Source: Cytophagaceae bacterium (GTDB lineage: Bacteria > Bacteroidota > Bacteroidia > Cytophagales > Spirosomataceae). Taken from it: 41,263 nucleotides of DNA. Where the stretch lies: NCBI GenBank assembly GCA_947494535.1, contig CANLVU010000008.1, positions 1 to 41,263 on the forward strand. Reading direction: 5' to 3'. The translations under genes and the position numbers were made by a program. Below, in pieces: positions 11,563 through 19,876 of this stretch (within the stretch, counting starts at the first letter, position 1; each line of letters opens with the position of its first letter). A model generated the notes under the pieces. That model saw only the letters and a list, made by a program, of their open reading frames with translations. It was not told the origin of the DNA and ran no database searches.

Positions 11563-12903
11563 GTGGCAAAACTTTGGCAAAAAGAAAATCAGACAACAGA
11601 CGCTAAAATCGAGAAATTCACGATTGGGAATGACCCCGTGTATGACTTGCAATTAGCGCGCTATGATGTGCTGGGTTCCCTGGCTCACATCACGATGTTA
11701 GAAAAGGTAGGACTTTTAGGGGCGGATGAATTAACTCCTCTTTGTGCTGAATTGAAGTCTATTTATGCCAAAATCGAAGCGGGCGATTTCACTATCGAAG
11801 ACGGAATGGAAGATGTCCACTCGCAAATCGAATACTTATTAACCCAAAAATTAGGCGATCAAGGCAAGAAAATCCATGCTGGACGTTCCAGAAATGATCA
11901 AGTTTTAGTGGATTTGAAATTATTTATGCGGGCGGAAATTCAGCACATCGCCGATGCAGTCGAGCGTTTATTTGATTTACTCATCGCTAAAAGCGAAACA
12001 CATAAAAACGATTTATTACCCGGTTACACGCACTTGCAAATTGCGATGCCCTCGTCTTTTGGACTTTGGTTCGGTGCCTATGCAGAGAGCCTGGTAGAAG
12101 ATATCGAGTTATTAGAGGCGGCCTTCCGTTTAGCGAACAAGAATCCACTGGGTTCTGGCGCGGGATATGGATCGTCCTTTCCTTTGGATAGAAAATATAC
12201 CACCGAATTATTAGGCTTCGAATCGCCACACGTCAATGTGATAAATGCACAATTATCACGTGGAAAGACCGAATTATATGTCTTAACCGCTATCGCGCAG
12301 ATCGCCACGACGCTAAGCAAATTAGCGATGGATGTGTGTTTATACAATTCCCAAAACTTCGGATTCATCGAACTCCCTAGCTCTTTAACGACAGGAAGTT
12401 CCATCATGCCACACAAGAAGAATCCGGATGTGGCTGAATTATTACGAGGGAAAGCCAACAAGTTGAAAGCTTTACCCAATCAACTGCAACTATTGACGAG
12501 CAACTTGCCTTCAGGCTACCACCGCGAATTCCAATTAACGAAGGAATTATTGATGCCTGCAATTGAAGAAATTTTAGACGAATTAGAGATCACACACTAT
12601 ATGGTGAGCCATATGAAAGTGAAGAAAGACCTCCTGCTGGACTCTAAATACGATTTATTGTTCTCTGTGGAAGAAGTCAATAAATTAGTGGTACAGGGAG
12701 TTCCTTTCAGAGAGGCTTATCAAATCGTAGGTAAAAAGATCGAGGACGGTGCATTCGACGGAAGCACGCGTGACATCAACCACACGCATTTAGGCAGTAT
12801 TGGTAATTTAGGTTTGGCAGAAATTCAAGGCCAAAAAGAAATTGCTTGGAAGCGTTTTGGCTTTGAAAAAGTGAACAAAGCTATCGCTGCATTAATTTCT
12901 TAA
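11563..12903 (+). CDS. argH: Argininosuccinate lyase
   Basis: This enzyme cleaves argininosuccinate to arginine and fumarate, the last step of the pathway. The start codon is GTG, four bases after argE. The 446 residues contain the superfamily signature 'GSSIMPHKKNP' near 281-291, with the catalytic Ser loop, 'HAGRSRNDQV' near 105-114 and 'TPLSSGAGYG-like' text ('NPLGSGAGYGSSFPLDR') near 194-210. The 3' end overlaps the convergent riboflavin synthase gene by 23 bases, and no terminator lies between them. argG, argC, argD and an acyl-transfer gene (argA/argJ) are absent here and must lie elsewhere. Confidence 0.95.
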   Translation: MAKLWQKENQTTDAKIEKFTIGNDPVYDLQLARYDVLGSLAHITMLEKVGLLGADELTPLCAELKSIYAKIEAGDFTIEDGMEDVHSQIEYLLTQKLGDQGKKIHAGRSRNDQVLVDLKLFMRAEIQHIADAVERLFDLLIAKSETHKNDLLPGYTHLQIAMPSSFGLWFGAYAESLVEDIELLEAAFRLANKNPLGSGAGYGSSFPLDRKYTTELLGFESPHVNVINAQLSRGKTELYVLTAIAQIATTLSKLAMDVCLYNSQNFGFIELPSSLTTGSSIMPHKKNPDVAELLRGKANKLKALPNQLQLLTSNLPSGYHREFQLTKELLMPAIEEILDELEITHYMVSHMKVKKDLLLDSKYDLLFSVEEVNKLVVQGVPFREAYQIVGKKIEDGAFDGSTRDINHTHLGSIGNLGLAEIQGQKEIAWKRFGFEKVNKAIAALIS

Positions 12904-13465
12904 TATACTTTCCTAGAATATCGAATTCTAAGTTTACGCGATCCCCTACACGTAGTTGATGAAAAACGGTGTGTTCGTAGGTATATGGTATAATGCAAAT
13001 GGTAAAGGAGTCATCTTGAGAATCTACGACGGTTAAGCTAGTACCATTCACACAAATCGAACCCTTTTCAACGGTCACGTGGCCGCTACTCGCGGGATAG
13101 CTAAATCGGTATTCCCAACTACCTTGTTGATCTTTTATTTCCGTACAAATGCCTGTTAAATCTACGTGACCTTGTACAATATGTCCATCGAAGCGAGCAT
13201 TTGCAGACATGCAGCGTTCTAGATTGACTTTTTGGCCTATCGCCACATCGCCCATATTCGTCTTCTGTAAAGTCTCATCGATAGCCGTTACGCGGTATTG
13301 ATCACCCAGGATTTCCACCACAGTCAAACAGACCCCATTGTGCGCGAGCGACTGATCCACCTTTAATTCCTGCGTAAAGGGTGATGTGAACCAAAATTCT
13401 ACATTCGTTCCTTTTGCTTCTTTCCTTACCAGCGATCCCATCGCCTCCACAATACCTGTAAACAT
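12881..13465 (-). CDS. ribE: Riboflavin synthase, alpha chain
   Basis: This enzyme dismutates two 6,7-dimethyl-8-ribityllumazine molecules to riboflavin and an aminouracil. The 194 residues show the duplicated lumazine-binding fold: 'MFTGIVEAMG' starts the first half with 'NGVCLTV' near 43-49, and 'ARFDGHIVQGHVDLTG' with 'CVNGTSLTV' form the second half. Length is normal for the family despite the 23-base overlap with argH at the 3' end. A good promoter lies at 13493-13522 on the minus strand, in the 46-base gap to the divergent DUF1684 gene. No other rib genes are in the window. Confidence 0.94.
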   Translation of the reverse strand: MFTGIVEAMGSLVRKEAKGTNVEFWFTSPFTQELKVDQSLAHNGVCLTVVEILGDQYRVTAIDETLQKTNMGDVAIGQKVNLERCMSANARFDGHIVQGHVDLTGICTEIKDQQGSWEYRFSYPASSGHVTVEKGSICVNGTSLTVVDSQDDSFTICIIPYTYEHTVFHQLRVGDRVNLEFDILGKYIKKLMQR

Positions 13466-13478
13466 CTGAATTAATTGT

Positions 13479-13486
13479 TATTTTTG
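13479..13486 (+). promoter_or_regulatory. Candidate -7 element for the DUF1684 gene
   Basis: TATTTTTG matches TAnnTTTG and lies 25 bases before the ATG at 13512. No convincing -33 box is present upstream, inside the ribE start region. It faces the opposing ribE -7 box only six bases away. Confidence 0.4.
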
Positions 13487-13492
13487 CGTACC

Positions 13493-13522
13493 CAAAATTA
13501 CACGCATTCCTATGAAATTCAA
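13493..13522 (-). promoter_or_regulatory. Promoter of ribE
   Basis: On the minus strand, TTG (13520-13522) is followed after exactly 19 bases by TAATTTTG (13493-13500), a full match to the Bacteroidota -33/-7 spacing. It ends 27 bases before the ribE start codon. The -33 part overlaps the first codons of the divergent gene. Confidence 0.6.
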
Positions 13523-14111
13523 CAAATGGTTCCTCTTTCTGATTCCTATCATCGCACTACTAGCCTATTTTAGTATTCCCACGGCAAAACCAGTTGAAGA
13601 AACAGGTGCCAATGTGTTGAAAATTCGCAACGACAAAGACGCCGCATTCAAGGGGGGAGAAGAGTCCCCTATCAAAGATAAAGCTTCCTTCAAGAGCTTG
13701 AAATACTATCCATTTAATAAAGATTACATCGTGGACTTCGTGCTAGAAAAAGCAGAAAAAGCGGAAACGGTAGAATTGAAAATGACGGATGGGACAACGG
13801 AAAAACTGATTTTTTTCGGATTCATAAAGGCTGATTTCAAGAGTTTTACACTGAAATTAAAACTATATCAACACGAGGACGGCAATTTCTTCCTACCCTT
13901 TAAAGATAAATCCGCCCCCACAGAAACCTATGGAGGCGGACGCTATCTAGATTTACCCCTAACAACTGTAAAAAACAATCGATTGCGAGTGGACTTTAAT
14001 CTCGCATATAATCCCTATTGTGCTTACAATGAAGAATTCGCCTGTCCTATTCCTCCCGCGGAAAATACCCTCCCGATTCGCATCGAGGCAGGTGAAAAAC
14101 TTTTTAATTAA
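13512..14111 (+). CDS. DUF1684 domain protein, membrane-anchored or exported
   Basis: A single N-terminal hydrophobic segment (about 5-24) acts as a signal anchor or signal peptide. The rest matches the DUF1684 pattern: the 'GGGRYLDL' block near 139-146, and the conserved end 'DFNLAYNPYCAYNEEFACPIPP' (given here in family order) followed by 'ENTLPIRIEAGEKLF'. The two Cys of 'PYCAYNEEFACP' are about nine residues apart and could form a disulphide or bind metal outside the cytoplasm. Function is unknown; the family is widespread in Bacteroidota and Actinobacteria. It overlaps the convergent GIN-protein gene by eight bases and is not in an operon. Confidence 0.85.
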   Translation: MKFNKWFLFLIPIIALLAYFSIPTAKPVEETGANVLKIRNDKDAAFKGGEESPIKDKASFKSLKYYPFNKDYIVDFVLEKAEKAETVELKMTDGTTEKLIFFGFIKADFKSFTLKLKLYQHEDGNFFLPFKDKSAPTETYGGGRYLDLPLTTVKNNRLRVDFNLAYNPYCAYNEEFACPIPPAENTLPIRIEAGEKLFN

Positions 14112-14808
14112 CCTGGTGTAGCGATGCGGCACCTGAAAGATCTTTCTTGATTAATGGACTTCCTTTGTATTTCACATGGGAAGCACCAGAAGCATCTACT
14201 TGCAAAGTTTTCTGAACATGTATAGAAGCGCTACTGGCACCTGAAGCTTCCACATCCACATTACGAGACAAAAATTCCAATGCTTTCAGGCTACTAGCTC
14301 CGGAGGCATCGACCTTCAAATAATCAGATTGACCGCTCATCTTAAAGTCTGAAGCACCACTTATTTCTATGCGCAATTTATCAGTTCTTAGTCCTTCAGC
14401 TACTCCCTTTGCTGCTCCAGAGAACAGCAAACGCATTTCCTCTTCATTTGTAAAGCCTTGTAAATCTACTTTACAAGCACCCGTAAATTCCCCACTTTCA
14501 AGTCGAGGAAGGGTAATATTTACGACTACTTTAGATCGATTGTTATTCCAACCCCAATTCCAGGTTGACTCATATCCAATTTGCAGTTTTCCACTAGATG
14601 AAGTAACCTCTATATCTTCCAAATCTTTTTCCCTACCTGTGATGGAAACGGCATAGACATTCCCTTTGTGAACATGCACTTCGAAGGCACTCCCTAACTC
14701 GATGGATTTAAAATTAGCTACTTTGAATTTTTTAGTAATTACGGCAGGATCTGCGAATGAACTAAAAACGACTAAAAAGGCGGCGAATAAAGACACGGTT
14801 TTTTTCAT
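14104..14808 (-). CDS. Secreted GIN-domain (DUF2807) protein
   Basis: This 234-residue protein has a signal peptide (1-19, ending 'FSSFA') and one DUF2807 'putative auto-transporter adhesin, head GIN' domain. That family folds as a short right-handed beta-helix. Rungs are visible as repeated 'SGAS'-type turns at intervals of about 19-20 residues in the second half ('EISGASDF', 'DASGASSL', 'EASGASSA', 'DASGASHV', 'DLSGAASL'). It is the last gene of the PadR-PspC operon, 49 bases after the PspC gene, whose product has its own C-terminal GIN-like domain. The molecular role is not established; a periplasmic or surface structural or adhesion role is only suggested by the family name. Confidence 0.88.
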   Translation of the reverse strand: MKKTVSLFAAFLVVFSSFADPAVITKKFKVANFKSIELGSAFEVHVHKGNVYAVSITGREKDLEDIEVTSSSGKLQIGYESTWNWGWNNNRSKVVVNITLPRLESGEFTGACKVDLQGFTNEEEMRLLFSGAAKGVAEGLRTDKLRIEISGASDFKMSGQSDYLKVDASGASSLKALEFLSRNVDVEASGASSASIHVQKTLQVDASGASHVKYKGSPLIKKDLSGAASLHQVN

Positions 14809-14857
14809 ATTATTTTAATTTGTTGCTAGATGCTTTGATTGCAAAATGGGTTGCATG

Positions 14858-17254
14858 TTATTTTACAATACTCCATTTATAATTTACTCCACTGCTCGAT
14901 TTATTTGAAAATTTAGAACTATCGAATTTTTTCCCTTGAACTAGATAAGATGCGTTAAGTTCTATTTTTGAGTATTTATCGATAGAAACATAGGCTTTTT
15001 CTACCGAGAAATCAGTCGCCAATAATTCTGCTGAATCAAATACACTAGCGTTCAATTGTTTTCCACTACCCTTTAATGTAAGTGAATGAAAACCGCGCAA
15101 AATAACATCGACAGTAGAAGATGTGAAGCCTTCTATTTCTGTGCTAGCATTACCTCCTAATTCTACTTTAGTTAATTCAGGAACGACAATTTCCACCTGG
15201 ATACCAGGCTGAATTTTATCTAATACTAACACCTTATTTTCTACATGTGCTGAACTCTCTAAAGCTTCATTACCACGGTAGGTAATTTTAGGAAGATCTC
15301 CTCTCGTTATTTTGATTTGAGAAGACTCGGTGTTTAAACCCGATATGGAGCTAAAATTAGCCAGGTCTTTCGTAATCGTAAAACCTACCTTTTCATCCGA
15401 AAAATCTTCATTCTTAGATTCCTCCTCGTTATGAGGAGTTCTATTTAGACATATCAAACCTTTGTCAGCAGAGAAGCTCCAAAGTGACCCGATAAACAAA
15501 TCCTGTCCCTCTTCGTGGAAATAGCCTGATTCTAGCACATTGTCCATGTAGTAAGCGAAATCACGCGTCATACTAAAGGATTTGCCATAAGGAATCATAA
15601 TTTTAACCTTCATGCGTTGTGCTCTAAATCGAGAGTCCGCTAAACTGAAGTGCGTGTCAAAACGAATGTCATTACCTTTTTGCAAATACTTATACTGAAC
15701 CTTTTTAGCATTAGCCTCGGCTTCTTTACGTGTCAAACCCTGCGATTTAGCATAGGTAATTACCTGAATGGTCTTCCCATCATAACCTTCGATTTCGATA
15801 TTCGCACGATTAAAGCGTTCTTCGTTATAATCATGATTATCATCCTCGTCATCAAAATCAAAGGCAAATTCCTCTACTTTCTCTCCTAACATCATTTGCC
15901 AGATCGTTTCATTATCCTTCTTATCGATGTCTAACACATAGGTCGTCGAATCTGAGACTACTACATCTTTCACCTCATTATAAGATGCAGAACGCTGAAA
16001 GTTCCGGCCGTAAAAAGCTGCCGCGGCAAATAAGCCTACCCATCCCACGATAATCATGGTAGTGGAAGCAATCTTATAGGTCTTATTGTAGAATTTACGA
16101 TTCGCTAATAGGGATACTCCCGCGATGACAATCGATACGAAGATGGGTAAGAAGGCCATCACCAAAGCCGGAACAGCCCAGAACGGAAAATCTTTCGCGA
16201 TTAAATAAAGTGGCAATGGGCCCATATGAACAAGCTGGCCTTGGTCAATACCCGTAAATCCAACCGTACACAAAGCACCCAAAACAATAATAAAGGCAAT
16301 ACCCAAAATCAATAAAATGATTCCTAAGAAGATTTGAATGATCCATCGAATCACATTCAATGGCCCTTTCAAGGCAGAGAAAACGGTGGCAAAAATGCGG
16401 AAAGGGAATAACAACACTTTTGTTAAGCCATTTTCTTCGGTTTCGTTAGGCTGAATACTCTTCTTAATATTGTTCTCAATATTTTCTAAAGTAATCGGCT
16501 CCCCCGTCATCTCCATCTTATCCTTCATTGTCTTAGCCTCTGGAGTAATGACTAAAATAACCAAATAAGCAATCACTCCAGATCCAAATAATCCAACCGA
16601 CAAAACGGCTAACACGCGCAATAAACCCACATCCCAGCCTGTATAGGCTGCAATACCAGCCATCACACCACCGATCACTTTTTTCTCTGGATCGCGGTAG
16701 AACTTGCGATACGATTTATCATCATCCGGATTCATTTCTCCTGGAATAGCTGCCCAAAAAATGATATAAGCCCAGAAAACAACATTTCCTAGATGGAACA
16801 AGGGGAAACTTGCACTCAGCAATACTAATAAAATCAACCGAACCCAGATCGGGTCTACTTGAAAATAGCGTGCAATACCAGCGGCTACTCCACCCAGTTG
16901 CTTGCGGGTGATATCACGACGGAATACCTTAGGACCGGCTTCTGATGTAGGTGCCGTATATCCTTCCCGCTTGTCTTCCTCTTCTTCTACTTGCTTGAAA
17001 TCTGCAATGGTTCCTAAAGAGGCGATTAAGGCATCTACGTGAGCTTGCGAAATGGCTTCTACTTTCTCTGTTTCTCGGATGTTCCAAAATTTCTCCGCAA
17101 TACTCGATTCGATATCTGCAATGATCTCTTTAGATCCTTCGAAAGAAGCAAAATAAGCATGTATCGATTTTAAATAAGCATCCAAGGTTGCATAGGCATC
17201 CTCTTCGATGTGGAAGACAAATCCAGCGATGTTGATTGATAAAGTCTTTTTCAT
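14858..17254 (-). CDS. Multi-pass membrane protein with two PspC domains and a C-terminal GIN-like domain
   Basis: The 798-residue protein has a soluble N-terminal region (1-108) and then two PspC-type segments, about 110-172 ('KQLGGVAAGIARYFQVDP') and 182-240 ('KKVIGGVMAGIAAYTGWD'), each with a following membrane helix. Further membrane helices lie at about 300-335, 358-385 and 398-416. A long extracytoplasmic part follows, rich in acidic 'DFDDEDDNHD' text near 468, and ends in a DUF2807-like beta-helix (about 640-790). PspC proteins sense or stabilise stressed membranes in enterobacteria; here the partner PspA/PspB is absent. The gene begins 11 bases after PadR, a recurrent pairing in Bacteroidota, so PadR probably controls it. 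Confidence 0.88.
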   Translation of the reverse strand: MKKTLSINIAGFVFHIEEDAYATLDAYLKSIHAYFASFEGSKEIIADIESSIAEKFWNIRETEKVEAISQAHVDALIASLGTIADFKQVEEEEDKREGYTAPTSEAGPKVFRRDITRKQLGGVAAGIARYFQVDPIWVRLILLVLLSASFPLFHLGNVVFWAYIIFWAAIPGEMNPDDDKSYRKFYRDPEKKVIGGVMAGIAAYTGWDVGLLRVLAVLSVGLFGSGVIAYLVILVITPEAKTMKDKMEMTGEPITLENIENNIKKSIQPNETEENGLTKVLLFPFRIFATVFSALKGPLNVIRWIIQIFLGIILLILGIAFIIVLGALCTVGFTGIDQGQLVHMGPLPLYLIAKDFPFWAVPALVMAFLPIFVSIVIAGVSLLANRKFYNKTYKIASTTMIIVGWVGLFAAAAFYGRNFQRSASYNEVKDVVVSDSTTYVLDIDKKDNETIWQMMLGEKVEEFAFDFDDEDDNHDYNEERFNRANIEIEGYDGKTIQVITYAKSQGLTRKEAEANAKKVQYKYLQKGNDIRFDTHFSLADSRFRAQRMKVKIMIPYGKSFSMTRDFAYYMDNVLESGYFHEEGQDLFIGSLWSFSADKGLICLNRTPHNEEESKNEDFSDEKVGFTITKDLANFSSISGLNTESSQIKITRGDLPKITYRGNEALESSAHVENKVLVLDKIQPGIQVEIVVPELTKVELGGNASTEIEGFTSSTVDVILRGFHSLTLKGSGKQLNASVFDSAELLATDFSVEKAYVSIDKYSKIELNASYLVQGKKFDSSKFSNKSSSGVNYKWSIVK

Positions 17255-17265
17255 ATATTTTTTGG

Positions 17266-17604
17266 TTAAGCCTTCGGTGAAGCGTTCGAAATTTGATTAA
17301 CGGATGCTTGTAATTCTTCCCATGTCGAGGACATTTCTGCTAGGAACTCTTGACCTGTTGAGGTTAATAAATAATATTTTCGAGGTGGCCCAGACGCAGA
17401 TTCGACCCAGCGATAATCTAAAAAACCCGCATTTTTAAGACGGGTTAACAAAGGATATAAAGTCCCTTCGACTACCATAATTTTTGCAGAGGTTAATTCC
17501 GCTAGCATCGTCGAGGCATATACCTCGTCTTTTGAAATAATTTTTAGAATACAAAATTCTAGTATCCCTTTTCTCATTTGCACCTTGGCATTTTCAATAT
17601 CCAT
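17266..17604 (-). CDS. PadR-family transcriptional regulator
   Basis: This 112-residue winged-helix repressor has the PadR core: 'RKGILEFCILKIISKDEVYAS' at the N-terminus, the recognition-helix region 'KIMVVEGTLYPLLTRLKNAGFLDYRW', and the wing 'GPPRKYYLLTSTGQEFL'. The C-terminal dimerisation helix is short, as in the small PadR-s2 group that includes LmrR. It is first in a three-gene leftward operon with the PspC and GIN genes. An inverted repeat overlapping its promoter (17641-17667) makes autoregulation likely. The inducing signal is unknown; small PadR proteins often bind hydrophobic compounds between the subunits. Confidence 0.92.
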   Translation of the reverse strand: MDIENAKVQMRKGILEFCILKIISKDEVYASTMLAELTSAKIMVVEGTLYPLLTRLKNAGFLDYRWVESASGPPRKYYLLTSTGQEFLAEMSSTWEELQASVNQISNASPKA

Positions 17605-17629
17605 CGGTTATTTGTTTAATTTAACAATG

Positions 17630-17660
17630 CAAATATAGACAAGGTACTATGTAATGCAAA
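17630..17660 (-). promoter_or_regulatory. Promoter of the padR-pspC-GIN operon
   Basis: On the minus strand, TTTG (17657-17660) and TATATTTG (17630-17637) are 19 bases apart, an exact match to both elements and the spacing of the Bacteroidota housekeeping promoter. It lies 26 bases before the padR start codon. The -33 box is embedded in the inverted repeat at 17641-17667. Confidence 0.75.
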
Positions 17661-17667
17661 GTACCTT
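17641..17667. promoter_or_regulatory. Inverted repeat, probable PadR operator
   Basis: AAGGTACT (17641-17648) and AGTACCTT (17660-17667) are perfect eight-base arms separated by 11 bases. The repeat covers the -33 element and most of the -33/-7 spacer of the padR promoter, the position expected for a repressor that blocks RNA polymerase. The GTAC-cored arms and one-turn spacing resemble known PadR sites. Confidence 0.7.
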
Positions 17668-17740
17668 AGAAAATTAATTTGTGATTTTGGATAAACGGTT
17701 GGTAATTTGTGATGAACGTACCCTTTTAAGGGTAAGAATT

Positions 17741-18949
17741 ATGAAACTAGTAAAAGATTTTTCCTTGCCTCTAGCCTTTTACAACCGAGATACTTGGTTG
17801 AAGGTGGCCTTTTTTGCGGTTAGTAGTTTGATGGCGGGATTCTCCCTTTATTTTACAGATGGATTAGTCTCTAAATTAGAGGAGCGAGAAAAACAGCAAA
17901 TTGAGTTGTACGCTGAAACCATCCGGTATGCCCTGACTAGTGATAATAATGCGGATATTAATTTCTTTTTTGAACGTATTAAAAAAGTAAACGAGAATAA
18001 TACGATACCCGTGATTTGGAAAGATGGTTCAGGGCATTTGAATTCCATTAACATCCCCTTAACTGAAACACTAAGTACGGAACAGAAGCAAGAAATTTTA
18101 CAACAGAAACTAGCCGAAATTATTGCTGAGAACAACAAACCCATCGAGATGGACATGGGTTTCCAGAAAGAATACATCTATTATGGGAATTCTAAATTGT
18201 TGAAATTATTACGCTATTATCCACTCTCACAATTATTAGTGGTATTGATCATTGGATTTTTAGGTTACATCTTTCTTTCCTATTCGCGTAGAGCGGAGCA
18301 AAATCGGGTTTGGGTAGGATTAGCTAAAGAAACAGCCCATCAATTAGGAACACCCCTTTCTTCTCTAACTGCCTGGGTAGAATTATTAAAAAATGAACCT
18401 CACATTAATCCAGATATCGTGTTGGAATTATCGAAAGATATCCAAAGATTAGAAACGATCACCACCCGTTTCTCTAATATTGGATCTGCTCCTATATTAA
18501 AATTAGAGGATATCGAATCTGTGATTCAAGGATTTATCAACTATTTAAAGATTCGCATTTCATCTAAAGTCACCATTGAAATCCATTCCTCGTTAGCAGC
18601 TAATCAATTAGCGAATATCAATAAGTACCTGTTTGAATGGGTGATTGAAAATATATGCAAAAATGGAGTAGATGCCATGAGCGGGAATGGTCATTTGAGA
18701 ATTGAATTAAAAGAGGGTAAGAATAATCAAATCCATATTGACATTTCTGACACAGGCAAAGGTATCTTGGCTAGTAATACCTCCAAAATCTTCTCCCCCG
18801 GCTTTTCTACCAAGAAACGCGGTTGGGGACTGGGGCTAACTTTGGCAAAACGGATCATCGAAAATTACCACCAAGGGAAATTGATTTTAAAGTCCACTGA
18901 AATAAGTAAAGGATCTACTTTCCGTATTTCTCTTCCTAAACCCGTGTAA
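17741..18949 (+). CDS. Membrane-bound sensor histidine kinase (orphan)
   Basis: Starting at the ATG at 17741 (402 residues), the protein has a membrane helix at about 20-38, an extracytoplasmic sensor region of about 115 residues, and a second helix at about 163-181. It then goes directly into the dimerisation domain without an obvious HAMP. The phosphoacceptor is His200 in 'KETAHQLGTPLSSL'. The ATPase domain shows the N box ('NICKNGVDAM', near 304-313), G1 'DTGKGI' (337-342) and G2 'GWGLGLTLAK' (361-370). No response regulator is nearby. Its stop codon directly abuts the start of the AEC permease gene, so the two are co-transcribed. The signal is unknown. Confidence 0.9.
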   Translation: MKLVKDFSLPLAFYNRDTWLKVAFFAVSSLMAGFSLYFTDGLVSKLEEREKQQIELYAETIRYALTSDNNADINFFFERIKKVNENNTIPVIWKDGSGHLNSINIPLTETLSTEQKQEILQQKLAEIIAENNKPIEMDMGFQKEYIYYGNSKLLKLLRYYPLSQLLVVLIIGFLGYIFLSYSRRAEQNRVWVGLAKETAHQLGTPLSSLTAWVELLKNEPHINPDIVLELSKDIQRLETITTRFSNIGSAPILKLEDIESVIQGFINYLKIRISSKVTIEIHSSLAANQLANINKYLFEWVIENICKNGVDAMSGNGHLRIELKEGKNNQIHIDISDTGKGILASNTSKIFSPGFSTKKRGWGLGLTLAKRIIENYHQGKLILKSTEISKGSTFRISLPKPV

Positions 18950-19876
18950 ATGACTGATCCTAATATCGTTTTTGGTTCTGCTCTCTGTATTATTGCCATC
19001 GGTTATGCGTTAAAAAGCGCTGGATTTATTCAGGAACACGATGGGAAATCGATATCGAAATTCCTGATGCATACCACTTTTCCTGCATTAGTATTCTCCA
19101 CCATGATTCGAGTGAACATCACGTGGGACCTCATCTACCTTCCGTTGATTGCGATGTTTTTTGGGATGTTTTTATCCTTTACCGCTTTTCACCTATTTAA
19201 AAATACAGAACCCGAAAACCGAGGTGTTATGACCATCGGAAGTGCTGGATTTAATTTAGGAATCTTTGCTTATCCGTTGATTGAAGGAATTTTTGGAATT
19301 CAGGGTTTGACCTATGCCATTATGTTTGACCTCGGAAACTCGGTGATCAATTTCTTTGTGAATTATGGAATGGGTAATTATTTTAGTCGAGGACCCAAGA
19401 ATGATAATTTAGCGCTACATATTTTCAAGAGAGTTGTTTCTCTCCCCCCCTTGCAAGCGATGGTAATAGGTGTTGTGGTCAATGTAGTAGGCATAAAATT
19501 CCCCTCCTTTGCTTTGGATCTAATTGCAACCATAGCCTCCGGAAACAAACCGATTGTTCTATTATTAATGGGAATCTATTTTAGTGTTCGCCTGTCTAAA
19601 AAATCCTATTATAGAGTGTTTCAAGTCCTTTCTTTGCGCTATTTCATGGGATTTCTAGTAGGTGGCCTCTGCTTTTACCTACTACCATTTGACCTTGGTT
19701 TTCGCAATTTGTTACTTCTCTGCCTCATATTACCTGTGGGAATGACGGTGATTACCTATTCAGATGAATTAAATCTAAATACACCACTTGCCGCTTCTTT
19801 AGTGAACATTTCCCTTGTTATCAGCTTTGCCATCATGTGGATCATGGTGACAGTTTTCCATATGAGCGCGCTTTAA
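18950..19876 (+). CDS. AEC-family permease (auxin efflux carrier superfamily)
   Basis: This 308-residue integral membrane protein has about ten hydrophobic segments arranged as two five-helix halves, as in AEC/MdcF-type transporters. 'SKFLMHTTFPALVFSTMIRV' near 27-46 and 'SAGFNLGIFAYPLIEGIFG' near 97-115 are the conserved crossover-type segments with Asn and Pro. Bacterial members move organic acids such as malonate or malate; the substrate here cannot be told. The ATG follows the kinase stop with no spacer, which suggests coupled translation and a kinase-permease functional pair. No biosynthetic or catabolic gene is adjacent to name the substrate. Confidence 0.85.
   Translation: MTDPNIVFGSALCIIAIGYALKSAGFIQEHDGKSISKFLMHTTFPALVFSTMIRVNITWDLIYLPLIAMFFGMFLSFTAFHLFKNTEPENRGVMTIGSAGFNLGIFAYPLIEGIFGIQGLTYAIMFDLGNSVINFFVNYGMGNYFSRGPKNDNLALHIFKRVVSLPPLQAMVIGVVVNVVGIKFPSFALDLIATIASGNKPIVLLLMGIYFSVRLSKKSYYRVFQVLSLRYFMGFLVGGLCFYLLPFDLGFRNLLLLCLILPVGMTVITYSDELNLNTPLAASLVNISLVISFAIMWIMVTVFHMSAL

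Follow-up and report, generated by a model that had tools for sequence, protein, structure and literature searches.

In a proposed alternative to two-component systems, PadR-type regulators are paired with HAAS domains in a HAAS-PadR dyad (Ravi et al., 2024; PMC11237479). The available part of this paper describes systems in which HAAS and a PadR-like winged helix-turn-helix (wHTH) domain occur together with PspC and Toastrack, and the dyad was predicted from gene neighbourhoods. Here, an operon of this type was analyzed on a 41,263-nucleotide stretch of contig CANLVU010000008.1 (positions 1-41,263) of a freshwater Cytophagaceae bacterium (Spirosomataceae); this stretch is called the window, and its numbering is used throughout. 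It encodes a PadR regulator, a PspC-Toastrack membrane protein with a HAAS-like N-terminus and a GIN protein. The operon type as such is already predicted in print, but the available part of the paper gives no operator or regulon (PMC11237479), whereas the system of the window has a putative operator and several predicted targets and lacks the proline of the GxP motif.

It appears fairly probable that a hitherto undescribed regulon of Bacteroidia, governed by PadR together with a HAAS-PspC-Toastrack sensor, responds to envelope stress. Such a regulon would often comprise a single padR site outside the Spirosomataceae and would have grown to two to eight sites in 135 of 150 genomes within this family. 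In the literature searched (titles and openings of abstracts) no description of the operator, of its class-wide reach or of the envelope regulon in Bacteroidota was found. To our knowledge, few details of how Bacteroidota control envelope stress have been worked out. With a defined operator, the PadR-HAAS idea can be tested directly, and an expression reporter becomes available.

An experimentally tested analogue of the proposed autorepression is lltR of Listeria. The lltR-lmo0600-lmo0601 operon is approximately 100- to 150-fold overexpressed in an lltR* mutant, in which liaIH is mildly increased as well (PMC6624303). Its genes code, in this order, for a PadR, a membrane protein (DUF1700) and an exoprotein (DUF4097), and the likeness to the operon of the window is one of gene order. 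Strong autorepression is experimental in Listeria, where LltR acts mainly on its own operon, and the available part of the source mentions no PspC domain for lmo0600, whereas the 798-amino-acid (aa) protein of the window has two (PMC6624303). LmrR and LftR are small single-domain PadR-2 regulators like the PadR of the window, and LftR recognizes a partial palindrome within the region of its own promoter (PMC6457526). They differ in their link to drugs, which LmrR binds, and to a putative multidrug transporter, which is under LftR control (PMC6457526). The classical Psp and Lia systems differ as well, since the operon of the window has no PspA match and no LiaRS-type pair inside. PspA gave no match among the seven proteins encoded at 12881-19876 (Pfam), the search having covered this region and not the rest of the genome.

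In Zobellia, the PadR gene ZGAL_1768 and the gene downstream of it are strongly upregulated on six polysaccharides (PMC5613140, as far as available); this could be the same operon.

A conserved palindrome over the padR promoter

The preliminary description, made from the DNA letters of the window, had placed inverted arms at 17641-17667 over the -33 box of the padR promoter, and both the coordinates and the promoter elements were confirmed. The inverted repeat AAGGTACT-N11-AGTACCTT overlies the -33 box of a promoter of the form TTTG-N19-TATATTTG. Inverted-repeat search and conservation define a 27-bp palindromic putative operator at 17641..17667, reading AAGGTACTTTGCATTACATAGTACCTT on the minus strand, with a conserved 21-nt core at 17644-17664. 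On the minus strand, the -33 element TTTG (17657..17660) lies within the left operator arm and the -7 element (17630..17637) starts six bases past the core; the pattern TTTG-N17-21-TAnnTTTG occurs once in the stretch scanned. When extended, the arms comprise 11 nt with a 91% match and 5 nt between them.

The palindrome alone is not significant, since dinucleotide shuffling of the 136-nt intergenic region gave arms of at least 8 nt with a loop of at most 15 nt in 83 of 1000 cases and 25 perfect 8-bp inverted pairs with spacers of 3-15 nt occur in the 41-kb window. A chance origin was ruled out by the conservation upstream of padR and not by the window itself. Of 80 named Cytophagales loci, all of which have a PspC match downstream of padR, 76 carry the core with at most two mismatches in the 350 bp upstream of padR, as against one of 1811 control windows of equal length from the same loci. 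The 76 loci split into 32/32 from the genus of the window and 44/48 from others; with 32 of the 80 loci belonging to one genus, the rows are not independent. Within these 350 bp, the core shows zero mismatches in 28, one in 29, two in 19 and three in 2 loci, and in the remaining two (L200, L181) it lies 595 and 615 bp upstream with at most two mismatches.

Among 12 order-level loci, nine carry the site at two mismatches or fewer and two at three mismatches, while the twelfth, G041 (L044, L106), is covered for just 109 bp upstream. One site (G038; L037) lies 169 bp upstream of padR and is visible in a longer stretch only, and another (G040) lies 565 bp upstream, ahead of a gene for a 157-aa secreted protein. 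The core pattern read backwards served as the control for site searches; in 59 relatives, sites with at most two mismatches were present in 49 and the backwards pattern in three. The named and the G-numbered loci overlap, so that their counts are not summed.

In 65 of 78 named sites the -7 motif TAnnTTTG begins 6 or 7 nt past the core, a distance at which polymerase and PadR would collide. The 55 distinct core sequences have TAC and GTA in the arms, plus TG and CA, as fixed or nearly fixed positions. With one exception among the 55, core position 6 is occupied by T or A, and all four combinations with position 16 occur.

The presence of the site follows that of PadR. Of 247 Bacteroidia genomes, 119 have both the site and PadR, 58 have PadR only, 4 the site only and 66 neither; the site is thus present in 119 of 177 genomes with a PadR orthologue and in 4 of 70 without one (the Fisher value for these counts ignores kinship). 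Where both positions were listed (50 genomes), the distance from the site to the padR downstream of it is at most 200 bp in 38 genomes and 494-803 bp in 8, and in the other 4 the site lies elsewhere. In four genomes of other orders, site and padR are separated by one gene; its product is a DUF4870 protein in L304, a GIN protein in L306 and a small exported protein in L305 and L307. Among 16 genomes picked for having no close PadR match, 15 lack a match to the HAAS-like domain in a search that had no positive control genome; by this count, PadR and the HAAS-PspC gene go missing together. Conserved site, near-fixed distance to the -7 element and co-occurrence with PadR strongly support by comparison the earlier proposal that PadR is autoregulated via a promoter-embedded operator. 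The operator predicted in the preliminary description thereby withstands the refuting condition that had been set for it, absence of the inverted repeat upstream of homologous operons.

One of the site-only genomes, G247 (L303), has a perfect operator followed by a short, apparently broken padR and then the HAAS-PspC gene. The broken padR may be a sequencing error or a natural loss of the repressor.

The predicted regulon

The predicted regulated set is wider than the padR operon. In the assembled genome to which the window belongs (2.03 Mb in 143 contigs, approximately 81% complete, with one PadR match, which is above the family cut-off), the core occurs twice at up to three mismatches, both times perfectly, namely at padR and at C13:10302-10322. 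The second site is situated at the promoter region of a 46-aa open reading frame (ORF; MKKRQLLILFFVFCSFQAMSLGFPHRLYPAKFIKKTIQVFVKNSKK) with a signal-peptide-like start, 31 nt before lgt. Second sites were read in 13 genomes of the genus, and all 13 encode this peptide there, at a length of 46-49 aa. A sub-clade with a diverged operator (TATAACCAAG in the core) has the padR site alone at two mismatches or fewer, bar one copy at a contig end. In some species a third target codes for an 815-aa protein (L087, L090, L095), and L087, which was scanned, is an OMP_b-brl_3 protein.

Across the 150 Spirosomataceae genomes, 144 carry sites at no more than one mismatch, 525 in total, and the 135 genomes with several sites are counted at this threshold; the backwards pattern gave zero matches at one mismatch or fewer. 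One genome from each of 18 genera yielded 64 sites, 17 at padR (one of them 791 bp upstream) and 47 elsewhere; the eighteenth genome has its padR site at two mismatches. The target was taken as the gene starting after the site, on the strand with the -7 match where one existed. Reading covered 41 of the 47 sites, the other six being G085 C231, G088 C15, two in G072 C18, G077 C5 and G083 2581890, and 39 of the 41 lie before genes of three recurrent exported families, of PspC proteins or of FtsX/MacB-type permeases.

Class A (14/41 sites) comprises small secreted proteins of 56-144 aa, one per genome, with a G-x-[PST]-[HR] motif near the end of the signal peptide; three of them gave no match above the Pfam or NCBIfam cut-off. 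Class B (14/41) consists of exported proteins of mostly 126-137 aa, two of which were scanned and showed a weak, below-cut-off likeness to DUF3244 and Por_Secre_tail. Class C (7/41) is the family of L087 and L092, outer-membrane beta-barrels matching OMP_b-brl_3 in Pfam. PspC genes follow two sites (L276, L290) and FtsX/MacB-type permeases two more (L279, L301), L276 and L301 being named by likeness to Pfam-named proteins with no scan of their own. The assignment of L301 is weak, as it lies 374 bp from its site and next to a second padR gene. The last two sites precede other genes, coding for a DUF1361 protein (L267) and a protein without a match (L283). In leave-one-out profiles 18 of 19 proteins tried as class B and 11 of 11 tried as class C were recovered. 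L285 has two class B frames, of which one was included in the test; L283, which had been placed in class B, failed and was moved to the other genes.

Outside the Spirosomataceae, some second sites precede a trypsin-PDZ protease (L316), an OMP_b-brl_3 protein (L313) or small exported proteins (L308-L312). In G078, the genes behind the sites code for a 74-aa PspC-like protein and for a PspC-LiaF-TM protein. Where a -7 match was found at classes A and B, its spacing from the core is mostly 11-13 nt; with this distance, as with the 6-7 nt at padR, the -33 region is covered, which fits a simple block of the polymerase. The genes marked by the operator support the envelope role that had been suggested for the system. 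If the regulon is real, its outputs in the Spirosomataceae would include an outer-membrane beta-barrel, additional PspC proteins and a new tiny secreted family, whose shared motif would lie near the start of the mature chain. These unnamed secreted proteins are probably made under envelope damage, as judged from the sites before their genes. The operator likewise suggests a function for which PspC-GIN fusions can be examined.

In the case of L301 (G072:C19), the gene for an FtsX-like permease and a different, second padR flank a perfect core; perhaps this is another PadR pair using the same box. Related palindromes, TAACTTTGTATTACAAAGTAC at L102:3047-3067 and TTACTTTGTATTTCAAAGTAC at L103:3089-3109, immediately precede an operon that codes for a membrane protein and for a different small protein resembling a regulator; a similar box may thus serve a second regulator. 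A similar motif is present in L054 and L055.

Proposed switch and its alternatives

The HAAS-like domain occupies residues 1-90 of the PspC protein (16985..17254, minus strand) and was assigned by PF22564 matches in homologues and by its structural model. Over its 90 residues 18 columns are invariant in 29 sequences, and PF22564 (HAAS) matches 26 of these 29 homologues at E <= 10 (best 4.3e-7). When 81 genomes were scanned, 10 of the 12 best matches (E < 0.02) lay directly downstream of a listed padR. In the model (pLDDT 89), a beta-hairpin is combined with two long helices and with a third that breaks at G81, a residue invariant in the 29 sequences. Foldseek found no match to this model at E <= 0.001, and the best VIA-align hits, RuvBL chains with a Z of 6.5, are uninformative. 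G-alpha-13 chains (E 0.02), which came out best when solved structures were searched with the HAAS-like alignment, were taken as chance. The domain may work like HAAS, and it may offer a release signal other than the ligand binding by PadR that had been assumed before.

An autorepressed PadR/HAAS-PspC envelope-stress switch with a wider envelope regulon is probably the best explanation of the locus. We infer that a PadR dimer would bind the 27-bp palindrome over the -33 box and repress its own operon, together with a small set of envelope genes carrying the same box. A disturbance of the envelope would change the state of the PspC/LiaF-TM/Toastrack protein, acting as the sensor, and its N-terminal HAAS-like domain would then pull PadR off the DNA or inhibit it. 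The output would comprise the operon, the small secreted proteins and the outer-membrane beta-barrel, and in some genera extra PspC proteins or transporters. These proteins would be made until the envelope is repaired, and PadR from the same operon would end the response.

Several observations weigh against this switch. At no more than one mismatch, 58 of the 177 PadR-bearing genomes lack the site, and G096, which is 99% complete, has three sites although PadR and the HAAS-like domain were not found in it. The backwards pattern also matches once at up to three mismatches in the genome of the window. The targets were chosen by visual inspection, and in several cases the site stands between divergently transcribed genes. 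The HAAS-like domain of the window reaches only E 0.02 and 15.7 bits against a cut-off of 27 (Pfam), its genome gave no HAAS match at E <= 10 in the 81-genome scan, and only two HAAS matches in these genomes pass the cut-off, neither at a listed padR place. The SwrA profile also matches 8 of the 29 members (best 5.6e-4). The proline of GxP is present in none of the 31 rows reaching that position, which have V or I, with T in L108 and A in L116; the domain is therefore called HAAS-like and not a canonical HAAS. For this PadR family in Bacteroidia, no binding, expression or phenotype data were found. The three sites of G096 may be orphan sites, or reflect a lost operon or an assembly gap.

It is possible, though rather doubtful, that PadR acts as a classical ligand-responsive PadR-2 repressor, with a lipophilic compound in the cavity of its dimer, in the manner of LmrR and LftR, and with PspC and GIN as effectors only. 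The 112-aa PadR is single-domain, its solved relatives include the LmrR chains 3f8b with 4zzd and 3f8c with 3f8f (named LmrR in PMC6457526), its W95 is invariant in 14 orthologues, and LftR binds ethidium (PMC6457526). However, padR is tied to a PspC gene in all 80 named loci and not to an efflux pump, and the joint loss of padR and the PspC gene speaks against this reading as well.

That the box is used by PadR mainly as an activator, or by another regulator, is unlikely. The position of the core on the -33 element at padR and the two spacings to the -7 element suit blocking better than activation by contact. Another regulator would fit the related palindrome before the operon with a different small regulator-like protein (L102, L103) and the three sites of G096 without a PadR match, whereas in the 247 genomes the presence of the site tracks PadR. 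A palindrome without any regulator, preserved for its place in the promoter or for forming an RNA hairpin, is very improbable: it does overlap the promoter, but it lies upstream of the -7 element and hence outside the transcript, and it recurs at unrelated promoters of the same genomes, its backwards form being absent from the 150 genomes at one mismatch or fewer.

Proteins of the operon and neighbouring genes

As described before, ORF calls give a tight leftward operon of padR, the PspC-Toastrack gene and the GIN gene with gaps of 11 and 49 nt, and the ORFs have the lengths reported. The gene order PadR, PspC-GIN, GIN holds for the window, but GIN is a separate gene in only some of the relatives. 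A separate GIN ORF follows the PspC gene in 21/21 loci of the genus of the window and in 11/42 others (32/63 in total), counted over loci with a complete PspC frame and 1.5 kb beyond.

The gene padR (17266..17604, minus strand) codes for a 112-aa single-domain PadR-type winged-helix regulator, identified as an ORF with a PF03551 match of 62 bits against a cut-off of 27 (Pfam). The closest named padR records belong to Aquirufa (including A. antheringensis, A. rosea and A. nivalisilvae) and other Cytophagales. In a sequence search of the structure database, the closest solved chain is 5h20_A (E 2.3e-38), reportedly BF2549 of Bacteroides fragilis. The paper on its structure, reportedly by Lee and co-workers (2017), may include a binding site. 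As candidates for the two signature tyrosines of the wHTH, Y29 and Y50 do not vary among 14 aligned orthologues and were paired with Y28/Y48 of LftR by spacing only.

The 798-aa membrane protein (14858..17254, minus strand; ORF, Pfam and AlphaFold model) is composed, from its N-terminus, of the HAAS-like domain, two PspC domains, LiaI-LiaF-TM, Toastrack and a GIN-like beta-helix. PF04024 (PspC) matches two stretches (103.9 bits), LiaI-LiaF-TM_PspC was found by Pfam, and Toast-rack_PspC-Cterm (PF22744) scores 52.1 bits against a cut-off of 27. DUF2807 matches residues 644-772 below the cut-off (Pfam). Foldseek places the model closest to putative adhesins of Bacteroides and Parabacteroides (3pet, E 7e-8; 4opw, E 2.6e-7). 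The results of Pfam and Foldseek fit the two PspC segments and the C-terminal GIN-like beta-helix noted in the preliminary description. The AlphaFold model of the whole protein has a mean pLDDT of 75 and a pTM of 0.40, values at which domain arrangement and membrane topology are tentative. The third gene (14104..14808, minus strand) codes for a 234-aa GIN/Toastrack protein with an N-terminus that resembles a signal peptide by eye (PF10988, DUF2807; 126.5 bits).

Finally, a histidine kinase gene (17741-18949) is divergent from padR and has a common intergenic region with it. A similar protein is encoded at the same place in other loci of the genus (L077, L079, L081).

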